A stretch of DNA of 64,000 nucleotides from Methylovirgula ligni. GTDB taxonomy: Bacteria > Pseudomonadota > Alphaproteobacteria > Rhizobiales > Beijerinckiaceae. Of the stretch, positions 11,757-38,262 are shown piece after piece. The notes beneath the pieces are model-generated. The model was given only the letters and a program-made list of their open reading frames with translations, was not told the DNA's origin and searched no databases. Made by a program: the position numbers and the translations under genes. Numbering within the stretch: position 1 is the stretch's first letter; every line of letters starts with the position of its first letter. The stretch covers positions 558,001 through 622,000 of the forward strand of contig NZ_CP025086.1 in the NCBI RefSeq assembly GCF_004135935.1, given 5' to 3'.

Positions 11757-11785
11757 TTGACGTAAATGTAGCTAAGGCTACATTA
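11757..11785 (+). promoter_or_regulatory. mntH promoter with MntR-like operator
   Basis: A perfect 8-4-8 palindrome AATGTAGCTAAGGCTACATT (11765-11784) lies 30 bp before mntH. A -35-like TTGACG (11757-11762) and a -10-like TACATT (11779-11784) bracket or overlap it, so a bound repressor would block the promoter. Layout, length and the GC...GC core resemble the E. coli MntR box as I recall it, and the downstream gene is a manganese transporter. Confidence 0.7.
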
Positions 11786-11814: not shown

Positions 11815-13128
<1,314 letters not shown>

Positions 13129-13148: not shown

Positions 13149-13230
13149 TTAGAAGTATTCTCACGCAGTTTTTAGAAGCGTTCTTATTTATCTTTTAGAA
13201 CAGTTCTTGTGTAGTCTTTAGAAAAACTCC
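13149..13230 (+). promoter_or_regulatory. Four tandem Irr-box (ICE)-like dyads, 23-bp period
   Basis: TTAGAA begins at 13149, 13172, 13195 and 13218, exactly 23 bp apart. The first three are dyads (TTAGAAGTATTCT, TTAGAAGCGTTCT, TTAGAACAGTTCT) and the fourth is decayed (TTAGAAAAACTCC). The left arm TTTAGAA is intact in three copies. The core TTAGAAnnnTTCT is the same as the palindrome before mbfA at 37237. A promoter-like TTGACT (13248-13253), a 17-nt spacer and TATCGA (13271-13276) lie just downstream. The array is therefore upstream of -35, the position expected of an activator. Confidence 0.75.
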
Positions 13231-13311
13231 TTTCTTAACTCAAAGTATTGACTGTGCAAATTTCGCGCAATATCGATCTCGTAAGGTTTTATTCTTTGTG
13301 CGGGGGCGCAA

Positions 13312-14811
13312 ATGGCACGAGCCAAGAATCGTATGCCAACGGATGGCAATCACGGGCGCCTGTCGCGGCGCATCCATGCACTGGAGACTGGCACGGCGCT
13401 CACATTGTGCTTGGTCGCGAGCGCGCTGAATGATTCGGCGTGGGCCGCGGATGCCAGCACCCTGACGGCTCCGGCGCCCACCTTCACCTTGAGCGATCTT
13501 TTCGCACCATCGCGCACGACTCTTCTGGGGGACGCCGGCGGAATTCGTCCCGCGCTCGCCAAATACGGCATCACGTTCACGCTTTTTGAAGAAAGCGAAG
13601 TCTTCGGTAACGTCACCGGCGGCTATAAGCGCGGCGCGGATTATGATGGCGTCACGACGCCGACGGTCATGCTCGACACGAGCAAGGCGTTCGGCTGGGA
13701 CGGCGGCACGTTCGAGGTCAGCGGCTTCCAGATTCACGGCTCGAATCTCAGCGCCAAGAATCTCGGGGTGATGCAGTTGGTCAGTGGTCTGGAAGCGGAA
13801 GATTCCACGCGCCTGTGGGAACTTTGGTATCAGCAGACGCTCGGCAAGAGCGGTTGGGATATCAAGATCGGACAGCAAAGTCTCGACCAGGAATGGATCA
13901 CCAGCGCTACGTCGCTATTGTTCCTCAATACGTCGATGGGCTGGCCGCTGGTTCCGTCCGAAGATATGTATGCCGGCGGTCCAGCGTACCCGCTCTCCGC
14001 CCTGGGCATACGGGCACGCGGTCAGATCGTGCCGAACCTGACGGCGCTTATCGGCGTTTTCAACGACAATCCGCCGGGCGGTCCCTTCAACGACGATTCG
14101 CAATTGCGTGGACCGGAAGCGAATGGCGTGCGCTTCAATCTCAACACCGGCGCGCTCATCATGGGCGAATTGCAATATGCCTTGAACCCGGCGCCGACCG
14201 ATCCGAAAGTGAAGGCGACCGGCCTGCCGGGCACCTACAAGATCGGCTTCTGGTATGACACAGGCTCGCTCCCCGATCAGCGGTTCGGCACCGATGGCCT
14301 GTCGCTGGCGAACCCGGCGAGCAACGGCGTCGCCGTCTTGCATCAGGGCAATTACAGCTTCTACGGCATCGCCGATCAAGTGATCTGGCAGCCGGATCTA
14401 TCCGCGCCCCGCGCGCTCAGCGCCTTTATCCGTGTGATGGGCACGCCGGAGAGCGACCGCAATCTCATCACGTTCAGCGCTAATGGCGGCTTCGCACTTA
14501 AGGCACCATTCCAGGGGCGCGACGGCGATATCGTCGGCCTCGGTTTTGGTTACGGTCTAATCTCAGGCAATACACGCGCCTTTGACGCCGATGCCGCCAC
14601 CTTTGCCGCACCTGGAACGCTCTCGCCGATCCGCACCTCGGAAGCGTTCCTCGAAGCTTTCTACACAATCAATCTCGCCACCTGGTGGCAGATAACACCG
14701 GACTTCCAATACATCTTCAATCCCGGCGGCGGGATCGTGAATCCTGAGATCCCGAGCCAGCTCGTGCATGATGAAGCCGTGTTCGGCGTACGCACGACCA
14801 TCGCATTCTAG
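13312..14811 (+). CDS. OprB-type carbohydrate porin
   Basis: A 499-aa outer-membrane beta-barrel. The N-terminal leader (THALTL-like hydrophobic stretch ALTLCLVASALNDSAWA) is followed by an OprB-family body (IRPALAKYGITFTLFEESEVFGNVTGG, WYQQTLGKSGWDIKIGQQSLDQE) and ends in Phe (VFGVRTTIAF), the outer-membrane insertion signal. OprB relatives pass sugars or other small solutes. It is first in a run of exported iron-related genes behind the Irr-like array, so its role here may be an iron source rather than sugar; that is inference. The ATG at 13312 has a G-rich Shine-Dalgarno. Confidence 0.85.
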   Translation: MARAKNRMPTDGNHGRLSRRIHALETGTALTLCLVASALNDSAWAADASTLTAPAPTFTLSDLFAPSRTTLLGDAGGIRPALAKYGITFTLFEESEVFGNVTGGYKRGADYDGVTTPTVMLDTSKAFGWDGGTFEVSGFQIHGSNLSAKNLGVMQLVSGLEAEDSTRLWELWYQQTLGKSGWDIKIGQQSLDQEWITSATSLLFLNTSMGWPLVPSEDMYAGGPAYPLSALGIRARGQIVPNLTALIGVFNDNPPGGPFNDDSQLRGPEANGVRFNLNTGALIMGELQYALNPAPTDPKVKATGLPGTYKIGFWYDTGSLPDQRFGTDGLSLANPASNGVAVLHQGNYSFYGIADQVIWQPDLSAPRALSAFIRVMGTPESDRNLITFSANGGFALKAPFQGRDGDIVGLGFGYGLISGNTRAFDADAATFAAPGTLSPIRTSEAFLEAFYTINLATWWQITPDFQYIFNPGGGIVNPEIPSQLVHDEAVFGVRTTIAF

Positions 14812-14896: not shown

Positions 14897-16009
14897 ATGA
14901 GTAAATCCGGCAATTGGATTTCCTTCGCCGCCGTCGCCGCATTGGCATCCGCCCTGACAGCAGCGCCGGCTGCGGCAAAGACAAACTTCCTCGACACGAT
15001 CAAGAAGAACACGACGCTCGGCTCGACCATTCCGGCCAACGGCGACGTCAATCCTTACGCGATCATCGTCGCCCCCTATTCGACCGGGACGATCAAGAAG
15101 GATGATGTGCTGGTCGGTAATTTCAACGACAAGGGCAACCTGCAAGGCGTCGGCACCACCATCGTCGATTACAATCCGGCGACCAGCAAGACGACCCTGT
15201 TCGCGTCCGTGCCGAAGACTCTGCCGTCCTGCCCCGGCGGGGTCGGCCTGACGACGGCAATCGCCTTCCTGAAGGCCGGTTATGTCATCATCGGCAGCCT
15301 GCCCTCGACCGACGGCACGTTCAAGACCACGGGGCCCGGCTGCCTCATCGTCTTCGACAGCAACGGCAAGTTCATCAAGACTCTGGCTGGCAGCAAGATC
15401 GATGGACCCTGGGGCAATACGGCGCTGGTCGACCATGGCAAGACCGCAACCCTGTTCGTCTCGCAGATCGGCGCGGGCAAATTTCCGTCGGTCACGCAAT
15501 CGGGCAAGCTCGCGTCTGTCCTGCGCCTCGAACTTGCGATCGGCAAGGACGGACCGGCGATCAAGAAAGAGACCGTCATCGGCGACGGCTTCGGCGAACG
15601 CGCCGACAAGGATGTGTTCGTGATCGGCCCGACCGGGCTCGCGCTCATCGGCAGCACACTTTACGTCTCCGACGCTGTCGGCAATTCGGTCAATGCCATT
15701 CCGCACGCCCTGACCCGCAACGATAGCGCCGGCACCGGGACCCTGATTTCCAAGGACGGCTTGTTCAAGCGCCCGCTCGCGCTCGAAAATGCGCCGAACG
15801 GCAACTTGCTCGTGATCAATGGCCTCGACGGCGAGATCATCGAAGTTGACCCGGCGTCGAAGAAGCAGGTCGCCTCGCGCTGGATCAATACCAACAAGGC
15901 GCAGACCCCGCCCGGCAGCGGCAATCTCTTCGGCGTCGCGCTGACGCCCGACCACAAGGGGTTCTATTACGTCAACGACGACGTCAATACGCTGGCCGTC
16001 GCACGCTAA
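14897..16009 (+). CDS. Secreted beta-propeller-like protein (NHL/SMP-30-like)
   Basis: A 370-aa exported protein with signal peptide WISFAAVAALASALTAAPAAA. The body repeats strand-rich blades (GVGTTIVDYNPATSKTTLFA, GCLIVFDSNGKFIKTLAG, GLALIGSTLYVSDAVGNSVN, NGNLLVINGLDGEIIEVDPA), a beta-propeller pattern of NHL type. No catalytic residues can be assigned. The Shine-Dalgarno is AAGGA. It lies 85 bp after the porin gene and 158 bp before the Dyp peroxidase gene on the same strand, so a periplasmic partner in the same uptake process is plausible. The fold class is fairly likely; the function is unknown. Confidence 0.65.
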   Translation: MSKSGNWISFAAVAALASALTAAPAAAKTNFLDTIKKNTTLGSTIPANGDVNPYAIIVAPYSTGTIKKDDVLVGNFNDKGNLQGVGTTIVDYNPATSKTTLFASVPKTLPSCPGGVGLTTAIAFLKAGYVIIGSLPSTDGTFKTTGPGCLIVFDSNGKFIKTLAGSKIDGPWGNTALVDHGKTATLFVSQIGAGKFPSVTQSGKLASVLRLELAIGKDGPAIKKETVIGDGFGERADKDVFVIGPTGLALIGSTLYVSDAVGNSVNAIPHALTRNDSAGTGTLISKDGLFKRPLALENAPNGNLLVINGLDGEIIEVDPASKKQVASRWINTNKAQTPPGSGNLFGVALTPDHKGFYYVNDDVNTLAVAR

Positions 16010-17673: not shown

Positions 17674-18672
17674 ATGCTGTTGTTTGATACGCGTCGCGTA
17701 AAGGCCCGGTTCGGCACTTTCGTCCCTTCCGCAGTCCTCCTCGCCCTGATCGCCATTCCGACATTCGGCGCCGCGCAGACCGCCGGCCCGTCGCCAGCTC
17801 CAGTCACCGCGCCAGCGCCTGCTGTCCCCGCGCCCGCAATCTCCGCACCAGCAACTCCCGCAGTTGCGAGCCCCGCACCCGTCGCAGGCGCGCCGAAACC
17901 CGCAGCGGAGGATGTACCCACCTTGCAACCCGCGCCGGGATCGATCTCGGCCAGCCTGTTGCCGCAGAATCTTTCGCCTTGGGGCATGTTCCTCAACGCC
18001 GACATCATCGTGAAAGTGGTGATGGTCGGCTTGGCTCTGGCCTCGCTGCTGACCTGGACGGTTTACATCGCCAAGAGCATCGAACTCTTTGCCGCGAAGC
18101 AAAAGGCGCAAAACCAGCTCGCCATCCTCGCGCACGCCGCGACGCTCGATGCCGCCCGCGCCGAACTCGAGGGCGCAAAAGGCCCGGTGGTGCGCATGGT
18201 CGATGCCGGGGCCGCCGAGGTCGACCGCTCTGCCGATCTCAACACCGACGGCATCAAGGAACGCGCCGCGGCGCTCATCGCGCGGATCGAGGCCCGCGCC
18301 GGCCGGGTGATCAATCGCGGCACCGGCATTCTCGGCACGATCGGCGCGACCGCGCCTTTCATCGGTCTCTTCGGCACCGTCTGGGGCATCATGAACAGCT
18401 TCATCGGCATTTCGAAGACGCACACGACCAATCTCGCCGTCGTCGCGCCGGGCATTGCCGAGGCGTTGCTCGCGACCGCCTTCGGCCTCGTCGCCGCCAT
18501 TCCGGCGGTGATCATCTACAACGTCTTCGCGCGCAGCATTTCCGGCTATCGCGCCATTCTCGCCGACGCCGCGGCGGAAATCCTGCGCCATGTCTCACGC
18601 GATCTCGACCGCGGCACCTCCGCGACGGCCGATAACTGGCACGTCGTCGGCATGCGCCGCCCGGCGGAGTGA
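17674..18672 (+). CDS. exbB: ExbB, TonB-complex proton channel (MotA/TolQ/ExbB family)
   Basis: A 332-aa inner-membrane protein that with ExbD energises TonB. It has a cleavable-type leader ([15 protein letters not shown]) and a long Ala/Pro-rich periplasmic segment (about residues 30-95), as in alphaproteobacterial ExbB, then three membrane helices. The signature [20 protein letters not shown] and [21 protein letters not shown] are MotA/TolQ/ExbB hallmarks. The gene precedes exbD by 3 bp. It is distinct from TolQ at the far end of the window. Confidence 0.94.
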
Positions 18673-18675
18673 GTC

Positions 18676-19134
18676 ATGGCCGTCAAGCTCTCGACGAGCG
18701 ACGACACGCTCGATGAAACCCACGAGATAAACGTCACGCCGTTCATCGACGTGATGCTCGTGCTGCTCATCATCTTCATGGTGGCGGCGCCGCTCTCGAC
18801 GGTCGATATCAATGTCGATCTGCCGGCCTCGACGGCGCAGGCCTCGCAGCGGCCGGACAAGCCGATTTTCGTCTCGATCAAGCCCGACCTGACGCTGGCG
18901 ATCGGCGATTCGCAGGTCGCGCGCGACTCGCTCGGCGCCGCGATCGATGCGGCCTCGGGCGGCGACAAGCAGCAGCGTGTCTTTCTGCGCGGCGACAAAT
19001 CCATCTCTTACGGCAGCGTCATGGACATCATGAACTTGCTACGCAAGGCGGGCTATCTGAAGATTGCCCTTGTCGGTCTCGACGCCTCGCAGGCGCCGCC
19101 GGAAAAAGCGCCGGGGCCCGCCGCAGCGCCATGA
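18676..19134 (+). CDS. exbD: ExbD, TonB-complex accessory protein
   Basis: A 152-aa protein with one N-terminal membrane helix. The hallmark INVTPFIDVMLVLLIIFMV contains the protonatable Asp needed for proton-motive-force coupling. The periplasmic part (STVDINVDLPASTAQ, then VFLRGDKSISYGSVMDIMNLL) is typical. It lies between exbB and tonB, overlapping tonB by the ATGA tetranucleotide. Confidence 0.95.
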   Translation: MAVKLSTSDDTLDETHEINVTPFIDVMLVLLIIFMVAAPLSTVDINVDLPASTAQASQRPDKPIFVSIKPDLTLAIGDSQVARDSLGAAIDAASGGDKQQRVFLRGDKSISYGSVMDIMNLLRKAGYLKIALVGLDASQAPPEKAPGPAAAP

Positions 19135-19973
19135 GCGACGCCGCAAGAGCACTGCCGGCGAGCTTCGCCGAAACCATATTGCCGCCGCAGGAGCACCTCG
19201 GCTGGCGACGCTGGGGCCTTGCGGCGTTCATTGTCGTCGCCGTCCATCTGGCGTTTCTGGCGGGCTACATTCTGACGCCGCATGACGACCGGCCACCGGG
19301 CGCGCCGCCGGATACCGTGATGATCGATCTCGCGCCCATCGCCGTCGCGCCGCCGCCGCAAGACGAGGTCGATACGCCGCCGCAGCCGGACCAGGTGCAG
19401 CCCGACCAACCGCCGCCGGTAACCCCGAATATCCCGCCGCCGCCCGACCAGCCGCCGCCGACGGACACGACCGCACCGCCCGATCCCGACGTCCTGCCAG
19501 CGGAGCAGGCGGAAGTCGTCATGTCCGCGCCGCCGCCACCGCCGCCGAAACCGGTGATCGAGAAGAAGGTCGAAAAGCCGAAGCCGACCAAGCATTTGCC
19601 GAAGCCGCAGCGGCGGATCAAATCGACGCGCACCGACCTGCCGCATTCGGCGCAGCAGGCGGCGCCGATGGCCGGCCTCCGTGGTGCCGCCGTCGCCGAC
19701 TGGAAGAGCGAAATCGTCATGCGCATCATGGCCGAGAAGGAATATCCGGAGGAGGCGCGGTCGCAGGGCGTCGGCGGCACGGCGCTCGTCGCGTTTTCGG
19801 TCGGCCCCAGCGGCAGCATCCGCGGCGTGCGTCTGGCGCGAAGCTCGGGCTCCGCGATCCTCGATCGGGCGGCGGTCGAGACGGTGCGCCGGGCCAATCC
19901 GGTGCCCCCGGCGCCCCCCGGCGTCAACGGCGGCGCGTTCACCGTGCCGCTGCATTTCAGCGTCGGCCGCTGA
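19131..19973 (+). CDS. tonB: TonB energy-transducing protein
   Basis: 280 aa: an N-terminal membrane anchor (WGLAAFIVVAVHLAFLAGYIL), a long Pro-rich periplasm-spanning region (VAPPPQDEVDTPPQPDQVQP, then PPPPPPKPVIEKKVEKPKP) and a TonB C-terminal domain (IMRIMAEKEYPEEARSQGVG, GTALVAFSVGPSGSIRGVRL, SSGSAILDRAAVETVRRA). It carries proton-motive energy to outer-membrane receptors, of which one is encoded at 25113. The start overlaps exbD by 4 bp. The sequence after the stop (19974-20173) shows no gene and no convincing terminator. Confidence 0.94.
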   Translation: MSDAARALPASFAETILPPQEHLGWRRWGLAAFIVVAVHLAFLAGYILTPHDDRPPGAPPDTVMIDLAPIAVAPPPQDEVDTPPQPDQVQPDQPPPVTPNIPPPPDQPPPTDTTAPPDPDVLPAEQAEVVMSAPPPPPPKPVIEKKVEKPKPTKHLPKPQRRIKSTRTDLPHSAQQAAPMAGLRGAAVADWKSEIVMRIMAEKEYPEEARSQGVGGTALVAFSVGPSGSIRGVRLARSSGSAILDRAAVETVRRANPVPPAPPGVNGGAFTVPLHFSVGR

Positions 19974-22737: not shown

Positions 22738-23792
22738 CTGCCGCCCGCAATGACGCTGCGAAGCAGATAGGCAAAGATCGGCGTTCCGACGATGGCAGTG
22801 ATAATGCCAACCGGAATTTCCGCGGGCGTCAATGTCCGCGCCAGCGTGTCGGCAACGATCATGAAGGCCGCGCCCATCACGGTCGCAAAGGGCAGCATCC
22901 GGCGATGATCGGCACCGATGACGAAGCGGGCGAGATTGGGAACGACGAGACCGATCCAGCCGATCGAACCGCTGACCGCAACCTGCGCCGAGACAATGAG
23001 GCAAATGGCGGCGAGAAGGATGAGCCGATCCTTCGCCGGGTCGAGACCCAGCAGCCGCGCTTCCTCATCGCCGAGCGAGAGGACGTTCACGCGCCAACGC
23101 ATGCCGAGCAGGATTGCGCCGCCGATGAGACAAAAGGCTCCGACCAGAATGACGCGATGCCAGTCGGCAGCAGCAAAGCTGCCGAGCAGCCAGAAGACCA
23201 TTCCGGGCAATTGCGTATCCGGATCAGCCACAAAGGTTGCGAGCCCGACGATGGCCGAGCAAAAGGCGCCGACGACCACACCGGCGAGAACGAGAGTCAG
23301 CAGCGGCGACTGACCATCACTGCGCTGCAGGGCGACCACGGCCGCCAGCGCCGCCGCTGCTCCGACAAAGGCGCAGATCTGGACCGCCGGGCCGAAACCA
23401 AAAAAGAGGATCGCCGCAACACCGCCGAGCGCGGCGCCCGACGATGCCCCAATGGTCTGGGGTCCTACGAGCGGATTGCGAAATATGCCTTGCAGGACTC
23501 CGCCACAGAGCGCGAGACCGGCGCCGACGAAGGCCGCAGTGATGAGCCGCGGCAGACGCACCGAATCGACGACGATCTCCTCGTCCGCCGTCCAGCCATG
23601 CGTACCGGCGTGGAGATGCGAAAGCAGAATATCGATCACATGGCCGGGCGGTACCGCATAGCGGCCCGACGCCAGCGAAATAAGAACAATGCCGCAGAGC
23701 GTTGCGATCAGCACAAGCCACGCGACGATATTCCTCCTGAGGTGAGGTTGCTCAGGCATGGCCGTCCGCGCCATGGCGTTCCCGACACTCAT
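22734..23792 (-). CDS. FecCD family ABC transporter permease
   Basis: A 352-aa BtuC/FecCD-type inner-membrane permease with about ten helices. Typical motifs are VDSVRLPRLITAAFVGAGLALCGGVLQ, RNPLVGPQTIGASSGAALGG and SGSIGWIGLVVPNLARFVIG. A single permease gene serves the transporter, presumably as a homodimer. It overlaps both the substrate-binding gene (4 bp) and the ATPase gene (4 bp). Confidence 0.94.
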   Translation of the reverse strand: MSVGNAMARTAMPEQPHLRRNIVAWLVLIATLCGIVLISLASGRYAVPPGHVIDILLSHLHAGTHGWTADEEIVVDSVRLPRLITAAFVGAGLALCGGVLQGIFRNPLVGPQTIGASSGAALGGVAAILFFGFGPAVQICAFVGAAAALAAVVALQRSDGQSPLLTLVLAGVVVGAFCSAIVGLATFVADPDTQLPGMVFWLLGSFAAADWHRVILVGAFCLIGGAILLGMRWRVNVLSLGDEEARLLGLDPAKDRLILLAAICLIVSAQVAVSGSIGWIGLVVPNLARFVIGADHRRMLPFATVMGAAFMIVADTLARTLTPAEIPVGIITAIVGTPIFAYLLRSVIAGGR

Positions 23793-24892
23793 GGTGTAGT
23801 CAGCCGCGCGTAATCCGTCGACGTTCCGTTCTGCTTGACGAAAAGGATGCGGTCGAGGTCGGCGTCGGTGACCGTGCGATTGTAAAGAAACCGATACCAG
23901 TCGCGCACATCCTTGCGCAGATCGTATTTGATCCGGTCAGGATGCAGGAGAAGCGCGAGCCAAGTCCAGGCAAGCGCCGATTCCTCGCTCGGCGGATCCC
24001 AGCGATAGCCGCCGAGCGGCACGCGATAGACGCGATGCGCCTTGACGGCGGCGACATCTTGCCAGCGGGGATCGTTGTAAATGTCCTGCGGCATCGTCTT
24101 GTCGAAATTGCCGAGCAGGATGACCTGCGGATTCCACGCCAGCACTTGCTCGAATGTCACCGCCTGCGAGACGCCGGGCAGGGAATGCGCAACGTCTTCG
24201 CCGCCCGCGAGGCGGATGAGAAAATCGCTATAGGCGCCCGCGCCATTGACGCCGAGCGAATCCGAAAAGCGATGAAGATAGAGCACGCGGGGTCGCTCGC
24301 CATCCGGCAAGCCCTTGAGCGCATCGGCGATCTCCTTCGCACGTTGCTTTTGTTTGTCGACGATCGCTTGGGCCCGCGCGGACGCGCCGGCGACTTGCCC
24401 CATCAGCAAGGTCGCTTCAAGCAAATCATCCTGGCCGCCATTGCGGATGCCGAAGACCGTGAGACCCGCGTTCTCAAGCGGTGCGAACACGCCACTGCCG
24501 GGATTCGTCCATTGGAAGACAGCATCTGGATGCAGCGCGAGGATCGATTCGACATTGGGCGCAAAACCGTCTCCGCGCACGATGTCGGTCGAGACGGTAT
24601 CGAGCACGGGAAAGAACTTGGTGAGCGCGCCCTCGCGCGCCGCGATCTTTGATGACGGGTTCATGCCGACGATGTGCTGCGCCGAACCATCGACGGCGAC
24701 ATACATCGCCGGCCCCGGCATCGGCAGAAAAACCATCCGCTGCGCCGGTGCCTTGAGTGTCGCGTGATGCCCGCGCTGATCCACGATCTCCGCGCCGTTC
24801 GCCGTAAGCGCACCCGCCCCCACGCCAAACATAAAAGCCAAGCTCAGAACGCGGAGAACTCCACGACCGCGCCGCAACCTATTCCAGAGCAT
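23789..24892 (-). CDS. FecB/BtuF-type periplasmic substrate-binding protein
   Basis: A 367-aa class III binding protein with a leader (LRVLSLAFMFGVGAGALTANGAEI). The two-lobe pattern is seen in AEIVDQRGHHATLKAPAQRM, NVESILALHPDAVFQW, then VTFEQVLAWNPQVILLGNFD and AHRVYRVPLGGYRWDPPSEE. Family members bind ferric siderophores, heme, cobalamin or, in MolA-like cases, molybdate/tungstate. The ligand cannot be assigned from residues, but the divergent FmdE-like gene favours a non-heme metal or oxyanion. It is first in the ABC operon. Confidence 0.9.
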   Translation of the reverse strand: MLWNRLRRGRGVLRVLSLAFMFGVGAGALTANGAEIVDQRGHHATLKAPAQRMVFLPMPGPAMYVAVDGSAQHIVGMNPSSKIAAREGALTKFFPVLDTVSTDIVRGDGFAPNVESILALHPDAVFQWTNPGSGVFAPLENAGLTVFGIRNGGQDDLLEATLLMGQVAGASARAQAIVDKQKQRAKEIADALKGLPDGERPRVLYLHRFSDSLGVNGAGAYSDFLIRLAGGEDVAHSLPGVSQAVTFEQVLAWNPQVILLGNFDKTMPQDIYNDPRWQDVAAVKAHRVYRVPLGGYRWDPPSEESALAWTWLALLLHPDRIKYDLRKDVRDWYRFLYNRTVTDADLDRILFVKQNGTSTDYARLTTP

Positions 24893-24955
24893 TCGAATCC
24901 CTCGTTTCGCGCATCAATTCACGCAGGGCACTTAAATAGAACTATTATAATTCAA

Positions 24956-37236: not shown

Positions 37237-37253
37237 ATTAGAATTATTCTAAA
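37237..37253 (+). promoter_or_regulatory. Irr box (ICE) before mbfA
   Basis: ATTAGAATTATTCTAAA is a near-perfect dyad of the form TTTAGAAnnnTTCTAAA, the iron control element bound by Irr as I recall it. It lies 37 bp before the mbfA start. mbfA is an established Irr-repressed gene in Bradyrhizobium and Agrobacterium. Confidence 0.82.
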
Positions 37254-37290: not shown

Positions 37291-38262
37291 TTGAAACCTT
37301 TCTCGCAACTCACCGAGCGCGAAATCCTGGCTCTGGCGATCGACGCGGAGGACGACGACCATCGCGTCTATTCGGCGTTCGCCGAGGATCTGGGCGAACG
37401 CTATCCCGGCACCGCTAAGATGTTTGCCGAAATGGCCGACGTCGAGCAGTCGCACCATGACACGCTGCTCAAAACCTATCGTGAGAAATTCGGCAAGAAC
37501 CTGCTGCCGATTCGCCGCGCCGATGTCTCCGGCTTCATGAAGCGGAGGCCAATCTGGCTGGTGCGCAACCTGCCGCTTTCGCAAATCCGCTCTGAAGTCG
37601 CGTTGCGCGAGACCGAGGCCTATAATTTCTACATCAAAGCCGCCTCGCAGGCCAAAGACCCGGCGATCAGGAAATTACTCGGTGATCTGGCCGAGATCGA
37701 GAAGGGCCACGAAGCGATCGCGGCCGATGTCGAGACCGAATATCTGACCCCGCAGGAGCTTCAGAAGGAAGATGCCCGCCAACGGCGCAACTTCATTCTG
37801 CGATATGTACAGCCGGGGCTCGCCGGTTTGATGGACGGCTCGGTCTCGACCCTCGCGCCGCTCTTTGCTGCGGCCTTCGCCACCCACAACAATTGGTCGA
37901 CCTTCCTCGTCGGCCTCGCGGCCTCCATCGGCGCCGGGATCAGCATGGCCTTCGCCGAAGCGCTCTCCGACGACGGCGCGATCAGCGGGCGCGGCGCCCC
38001 TTGGCTGCGCGGACCGATCTGCGGCGCCATGACCGCCCTCGGCGGTCTCGGCCATACGCTGCCCTATCTCGTTCCCAATTCGCTGCCGAATGCCTTTGCG
38101 ATCGCGACCGGGATTTCCGGAATCGTGGTCTTCTTCGAGCTTTGGGCCATCGCCTGGGTTCGGGCGCATTATATGGACACGCCGCTGCTGCAGGCGATCT
38201 TCCAGATCGTCCTTGGCGGCGTCATCGTTCTGCTGACCGGCATTCTGATCGGCAACGCCTAG
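37291..38262 (+). CDS. mbfA: Membrane-bound ferritin MbfA (ferritin-VIT1 fusion)
   Basis: 323 aa starting at a TTG with AGGAAAAA upstream. The N-terminal half is a ferritin-like four-helix bundle with paired Glu/His ligands (LAIDAEDDDHRVYSAFAED, FAEMADVEQSHHDTLL, RETEAYNFYIKAASQA, LGDLAEIEKGHEAIAA). The C-terminal half is a VIT1/CCC1-like membrane domain (LAGLMDGSVSTLAPLFAAAF, GLAASIGAGISMAFAEALSD). Known members export iron from the cytoplasm and protect against iron and peroxide stress. The Irr box implies repression when iron is scarce. Confidence 0.93.
   Translation: MKPFSQLTEREILALAIDAEDDDHRVYSAFAEDLGERYPGTAKMFAEMADVEQSHHDTLLKTYREKFGKNLLPIRRADVSGFMKRRPIWLVRNLPLSQIRSEVALRETEAYNFYIKAASQAKDPAIRKLLGDLAEIEKGHEAIAADVETEYLTPQELQKEDARQRRNFILRYVQPGLAGLMDGSVSTLAPLFAAAFATHNNWSTFLVGLAASIGAGISMAFAEALSDDGAISGRGAPWLRGPICGAMTALGGLGHTLPYLVPNSLPNAFAIATGISGIVVFFELWAIAWVRAHYMDTPLLQAIFQIVLGGVIVLLTGILIGNA

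Follow-up and report, generated by a model that had tools for sequence, protein, structure and literature searches.

We identified a tandem array of four Irr-type boxes with a period of 23 base pairs (bp) in a 64,000-nucleotide stretch of the Methylovirgula ligni genome (contig NZ_CP025086.1, positions 558,001 to 622,000; hereafter the window), located between mntH and a gene encoding an OprB-family porin. The four phased copies, the last of which is a half-box, are confirmed. The array is probably a multi-site operator for Irr, the haem-sensing regulator of the Fur family, through which the porin promoter would be activated under low iron. The observed basis of this proposal is the boxes themselves, their phase, a distance from the last box to a TTGAC sequence that is common to relatives, two irr genes in the genome, and a matching array in a sister species. 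From these we infer Irr binding, activation, cooperativity and an iron response at the array.

Four phased Irr-type copies before a porin gene

The core TTAGAA occurs at window positions 13149, 13172, 13195 and 13218, each exactly 23 bp from the next, as an earlier reading of the sequence alone (the sequence-only reading) had described. The same reading found the dyad AGAAnnnTTCT whole in three copies, and these are indeed complete (AGAAGTATTCT, AGAAGCGTTCT and AGAACAGTTCT). Its heading, which spoke of four dyads, claims too much: the fourth copy, AGAAAAACTCC, has only the left half intact and forms no full dyad. The array consists of the following elements.

13149 to 13163, plus strand: Irr box 1, TTAGAAGTATTCTCA; starts 99 bp 5' of TTGAC
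13172 to 13186, plus strand: Irr box 2, TTAGAAGCGTTCTTA; top score of the four, 76 bp 5' of TTGAC
13195 to 13209, plus strand: Irr box 3, TTAGAACAGTTCTTG; 53 bp 5' of TTGAC
13218 to 13232, plus strand: Irr half-box 4, promoter-proximal, TTAGAAAAACTCCTT; 30 bp 5' of TTGAC (30 or 31 in relatives)

With two or fewer mismatches, TTAGAAnnnTTCTAA, which we take to be the Irr-box consensus and which agrees with boxes at Irr-type targets of the order, occurs seven times in the window where 0.26 occurrences are expected. None of 100 shuffles reached seven, and array copies account for three of the seven. A scan with an Irr-box matrix, proposed as a check by the sequence-only reading, bears out the phase: summed over four phased positions the score is 45.7 at period 23, whereas no other period between 17 and 40 exceeds -22.0 and the window read in reverse scores -33.7 at the 23-bp period. 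It does not bear out the fourth copy as a site of its own. Boxes 1 to 4 score 12.1, 19.4, 14.4 and -0.2 bits, against 28.0 bits for the box before mbfA described below, and the array sites are thus individually weak to middling, on a matrix whose training boxes all had to begin TTAGAA...TTC and which therefore favours that form.

The spacing also bears on how the sites are presented to a protein. Twenty-three bp correspond to 2.19 turns of 10.5 bp, which rotates each site by about 69 degrees relative to its neighbour, so that the boxes do not lie on one helix face. The cooperative row along one side of the helix that had been suggested is ruled out by this arithmetic. Phased bending by T-tracts was likewise rejected, 23 bp being out of helical phase.

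The sequence-only reading had pointed out that the same core precedes mbfA in the window, and a perfect box is found there, which serves as a contrast to the array.

37238 to 37252, plus strand: perfect single Irr box, 28.0 bits, before the mbfA-like gene at 37291 to 38262

By eye, this box overlaps the probable mbfA promoter, a repressor-like position.

The promoter and the array in relatives

All four boxes lie entirely upstream of a TTGAC that is shared with relatives and that probably belongs to the -35 element of the porin promoter.

13248 to 13253, plus strand: probable -35, TTGACT; kept 30–31 bp from the proximal box in relatives, though not confirmed by the consensus scan
13271 to 13276, plus strand: possible -10, TATCGA, after a 17-bp spacer; weak, predicted from the sequence and missed by the consensus scan

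A sigma-70 promoter scan at its own threshold returned none between 13100 and 13330. The earlier placement of the array 5' of a -35/-10 pair therefore stands for TTGACT, which is downstream of the boxes, and not for a recognizable sigma-70 promoter, the -10 being weak.

From the start of the proximal box to TTGAC the distance is exactly 30 bp in the window, in the sister species (G007), in the congener G002 and in Methylocapsa, and 31 bp in the congeners G005, G006 and G009. An uncultured Rhizobiales metagenome-assembled genome (MAG; L109) has a degenerate box matching 8 of 12 positions at offset 30 and a strong box at 60, and G002 carries a second, better box (17.8 bits) closer to the gene with no TTGAC behind it. 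For offset 30 we obtained z = 4.4, a value that overstates the case because the eight promoters and the TTGAC in each were chosen by hand. The shared distance favours an activator that contacts RNA polymerase. The earlier remark that the position suits an activator accordingly holds as far as the array stands 5' of TTGAC at a distance kept in relatives; the promoter and the activation are predicted.

Searches beyond these promoters define how far the spacing extends. In 11 genus genomes, TTAGAA-N24/25-TTGAC has seven exact matches, five of them at porin or hemP-porin promoters; the other two lie before a ferric-iron-binding-like gene (so named from its best solved relatives) and upstream of a DUF6662 gene. 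Because the reversed control of this search gives 11 matches, the count of seven is not enriched, and only location speaks for function. Among 80 named porin relatives, the element (TTAGAA with at most one mismatch) is located 5' of 3 of 23 mostly alphaproteobacterial loci, a set that takes in one Caballeronia and three MAGs not named alphaproteobacteria and in which one locus has just three bases upstream. It precedes none of the 57 others, which are mainly from Burkholderiales, 56 of them with at least 500 bases upstream; six of these 57 carry a single box with two mismatches. Strict boxes followed by TTGAC in 397 genomes of the family (43 rows from 31 genomes) have spread offsets, with 6 of the 43 rows at 30–31 bp where 2.8 are expected. 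A family-wide 30-bp rule for strict boxes is thus unsupported; the distance is a feature of these promoters and not of Irr sites in general. A helical rhythm in the same offsets gives p values of 0.01–0.09 over three assumed periods, the rows being non-independent.

The porin itself was sought in 80 genomes including that of M. ligni, of which 18 have a match at the threshold used, among them 8 of 11 in the genus. Its upstream region is readable in seven genus genomes (M. ligni, G001, G002, G005, G006, G007 and G009) and is truncated in G004. Left out of the counts are the second porin copies of G005 and G006 (L026 and L027), which lack phased boxes, and more distant porin relatives outside the genus. 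The sister G007, whose locus is identical to that of Methylovirgula sp. MAG_BA316, has four copies at 23 bp in the same register and at the same distance from TTGAC, with mntH upstream, although its porin is only 78% identical to that of M. ligni. Conservation of the phased copies in relatives, which the sequence-only reading had proposed to examine, is accordingly found in the sister but not in the other readable genus promoters (2 of 7 in all), where the spacing differs or the array is missing. In Methylocapsa sp. S129 the porin gene is preceded by three boxes at intervals of 31 bp.

Between the window and the sister, half-sites of orthologous units agree at 38 of 44 positions, and spacer plus linker at 27 of 48 (Fisher p = 0.0025, on positions that are few and not independent), which suggests that the half-sites have been held better than the linkers. 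Linkers are more alike in orthologous than in non-orthologous units (58% versus 42% identity), and the array therefore arose before the two species separated. These comparisons bear on the possibility that the proximal box alone matters and that the upstream copies are a tandem duplication of little function. The half-sites of non-orthologous units are nearly as alike as those of orthologous ones (84% versus 86%), and congeners having one or two boxes retain the proximal one, as such a history would predict. However, an array that predates the species split, with half-sites held better than linkers, and a separate three-box array with its own 31-bp period in Methylocapsa both argue against it, and we consider it unlikely.

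The array could also be a repression operator, at which Irr bound under iron shortage would block the porin promoter or the region upstream of it. This is improbable, since the boxes are all located wholly 5' of TTGAC, in contrast to the mbfA box, which lies across its probable promoter, and since the downstream genes resemble uptake genes, whose shutdown by a repressor in low iron would not be expected.

Regulators, neighbouring genes and other Irr-type boxes

The M. ligni genome (3.3 megabases, one contig) has three Fur-family matches. Two of these proteins exceed the cut-off of the IrrA model NF045678 (158.1 and 163.3 versus 150), and the boxes fit the Irr consensus, so that Irr, as proposed by the sequence-only reading, is upheld as the candidate regulator. 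Judged by eye from the translations, both carry an HXH haem-binding motif (HSH and HCH) and neither has Cys-Pro; the motif definitions are those in the accessible parts of PMC11442138 and PMC7762939. The third protein has Zur as its best match, at 108.1 and below the cut-off of 167. Fur and Mur were rejected as regulators because the only three Fur-family proteins in the genome are the two IrrA proteins and the Zur-like one. RirA control of the array was rejected as well, no Rrf2 protein reaching the cut-off: of the two in the genome, neither scores above 55.1 bits, where the RirA model requires 193. The FUR and Rrf2 families thus yield no iron regulator other than Irr; DtxR-type proteins were not searched for. 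The IrrA paralogs are encoded at 1711596 and 1935538 of the same contig (G000:C1; L005 and L006), in one genome, and might divide repression and activation between them.

The genes around the array are as follows.

11815 to 13128, plus strand: MntH, Nramp Mn/Fe transporter (NF001923, 525.1 bits versus a cut-off of 430; PF01566); ends 20 bp 5' of the array
13312 to 14811, plus strand: OprB-family porin (PF04966, 297.5 bits), first gene 3' of the array
14897 to 16009, plus strand: protein without Pfam or NCBIfam match, secreted-looking by eye; in the same place in congener L061
16048 to 17451, plus strand: EfeB-type DyP peroxidase/deferrochelatase (TIGR01412, 429.4 bits versus a cut-off of 428); longest reading frame, true start possibly later
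17674 to 18672, plus strand: ExbB (PF01618)
18676 to 19134, plus strand: ExbD (PF02472)
19131 to 19973, plus strand: TonB (PF03544)

By eye, the gene order behind the porin is the same in L061. In G005 (Pfam match) and in G006 and G009 (by eye), a hemP-like gene precedes the porin ortholog, which links the porin to iron in the genus. In M. ligni hemP is located elsewhere, and its locus (3.1 kilobases) contains no box of at least 7 bits. A perfect palindrome, AATGTAGC-TAAG-GCTACATT, is present at 11765–11784 and ends 30 bp 5' of mntH; its sequence is unlike the array repeat, and from its position we guess that it is possibly the operator of another metal regulator.

That some other regulator (the Zur-like protein, a DtxR-type protein or an unrelated factor) binds the repeat is very improbable: the neighbouring mntH with its own palindrome may indicate another metal regulator acting nearby, and the DtxR type fell outside the families covered, but that palindrome differs in sequence from the repeat, whose core is identical to that of the Irr-type boxes found in pairs before mbfA-, bfr-, ferritin- and iron-ABC-like genes of the order (names by eye).

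Such pairs run counter to the view, expressed by the sequence-only reading, that single iron control element (ICE) sites are usual. Paired Irr-type boxes with exact cores are present in 37 of 397 genomes of the order, compared with 3 of 397 in the reversed control, at periods of 19–46 bp within a searched range of 16–46. They stand before mbfA-, bfr-, ferritin-, isc- and iron-ABC-like genes (names by eye). In 19 further stretches of the M. ligni genome around box-like sites, good boxes were seen beside genes for an isc-type cysteine desulfurase (by eye), an FTR1 iron permease and a cytochrome b561. The window has one more, weaker Irr-like box (12.1 bits, 24936–24950) before a periplasmic-binding-type gene (23789–24892, minus strand) whose NCBIfam matches are all below cut-off. 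In the congener G004, a 23-bp Irr-type pair separates a divergent cupredoxin-domain gene (PF13473) from a helicase-like gene (by eye; L165, 1501–1538). In two genomes of another genus in the family (L171 and L174, 1499–1573), three Irr-like boxes spaced by 23 and 37 bp stand ahead of a gene for a periplasmic binding protein (PF01497; NCBIfam matches below cut-off).

A four-copy array at this distance from the promoter was encountered only in the window and the sister. The three-core pattern with free spacing was found in 2 of 397 order genomes and 4 of 397 family genomes, where the reversed control gave 3 and 7, and on its own is therefore at chance level. One match, in G245, falls within a repetitive part of a reading frame, and by eye the matches in G612 and G619 also seem repetitive. 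With three or fewer mismatches allowed, a single 23-bp pair occurs in 25 of 248 family genomes against 23 in the control, again at chance level, and among the matches listed, successive 23-bp pairs in phase appear only in M. ligni and G007. Since these searches are at chance level and the three-core pattern misses degenerate arrays, that of G007 among them, uniqueness here means that no other four-copy phased array was seen. Among the titles listed by a literature search, none concerns arrays with at least three Irr boxes, most subscription papers being outside its reach.

Proposed mechanism and known systems

Under low iron, apo-Irr would fill the array cooperatively, a dimer on the weak proximal half-box being stabilized by better upstream neighbours. 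The combination of a weak proximal half-site with better upstream sites suggests such filling and a steep response. From its fixed place 30 bp 5' of the -35 element, Irr could contact RNA polymerase in a class-I-like manner and would switch on the porin gene, perhaps together with the EfeB and ExbBD-TonB genes that follow. When iron is plentiful, haem would inactivate or remove Irr, and the array, made of weak sites, should be vacated sooner than strong sites, while the strong single site over the probable mbfA promoter would serve repression. Activation or repression by apo-Irr depending on ICE position is described in the accessible part of PMC7762939. HmuP is presented as a transcriptional activator in B. 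japonicum that perhaps acts via interaction with Irr (PMC11442138, in the part available). A tentative extension, less likely true than false in our estimate, is that Irr builds a short filament along the DNA and occupies the half-site, which by itself would be too weak, only if the upstream boxes seed it; the number and strength of these boxes would then set the iron threshold of each promoter, and lineages would tune it by copy number and spacing (23, 31 or about 40 bp) with the contact distance fixed at 30–31 bp from the -35 element.

Besides the limits given with the figures above and the families that the regulator search covered, several results weigh against an activating Irr array. Box 4 is scarcely a site when scored in full, and the resemblance between non-orthologous half-sites is close to that between orthologous ones. 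Both Irr proteins fall under the cut-off of the second NCBIfam Irr model, NF045677 (150.6 and 158.2 versus 170). Beyond the sister, neither the copy number nor the 23-bp spacing is conserved: other relatives have a single box, or boxes spaced by 31 or about 40 bp. In G001 (L141) the array is absent and the gap from mntH to the porin gene is short, as if the two were cotranscribed. Finally, the part of PMC3413700 available to us reports that Rhodobacter Irr is not needed for the low-iron induction of iron genes.

How Irr activates seems less clear than how it represses, and according to the accessible part of a 2020 review (PMC7762939) no Irr crystal structure was then available. A four-copy promoter with a seemingly fixed contact distance, present also in a sister species, offers a clean test bed for iron-dependent activation. 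An OprB porin would thereby be linked to iron control in a soil methylotroph.

The nearest known systems are the Irr/ICE promoters of Bradyrhizobium (Rudolph et al. 2006, as cited in the parts seen of PMC7762939 and PMC11442138), which share the box type, Irr itself and activation or repression that depends on position. Unlike them, the window has four phased and mostly weak sites, with the proximal half-box 30 bp before TTGAC. The paired Irr boxes of the order likewise place more than one box at a promoter; theirs are pairs with exact cores, whereas the window has four copies, the last of them degenerate.

Arrays of Fur sites serve mainly repression. In the multi-dimer operators of Fur, as the accessible text of PMC4506495 describes them, Fur-family dimers cooperate in binding adjacent sites that face almost opposite sides of the DNA, so that the 23-bp spacing of 2.19 turns is compatible with contacts. 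Their sites overlap within one box, whereas those in the window are separate boxes upstream of a promoter. The mbfA box of Rhodobacter, within which a 5' end has been mapped (PMC3413700, same part), resembles the mbfA box of the window in overlapping the probable promoter.

The porin has parallels of its own, and it adjoins mntH in the window and in the congeners G007 and G001. The manganese porin MnoP is similarly paired with mntH in Bradyrhizobium. Unlike MnoP, the porin in the window belongs to the OprB family and has an Irr-type array, and its substrate could be iron, manganese or something else; MnoP is a manganese transporter according to the portion of PMC6011978 at hand. Slr1908 of Synechocystis is cyanobacterial and carries an SLH domain, and the part of PMC8707739 consulted draws no link to Irr, but it is an OprB-domain porin tied to iron uptake.
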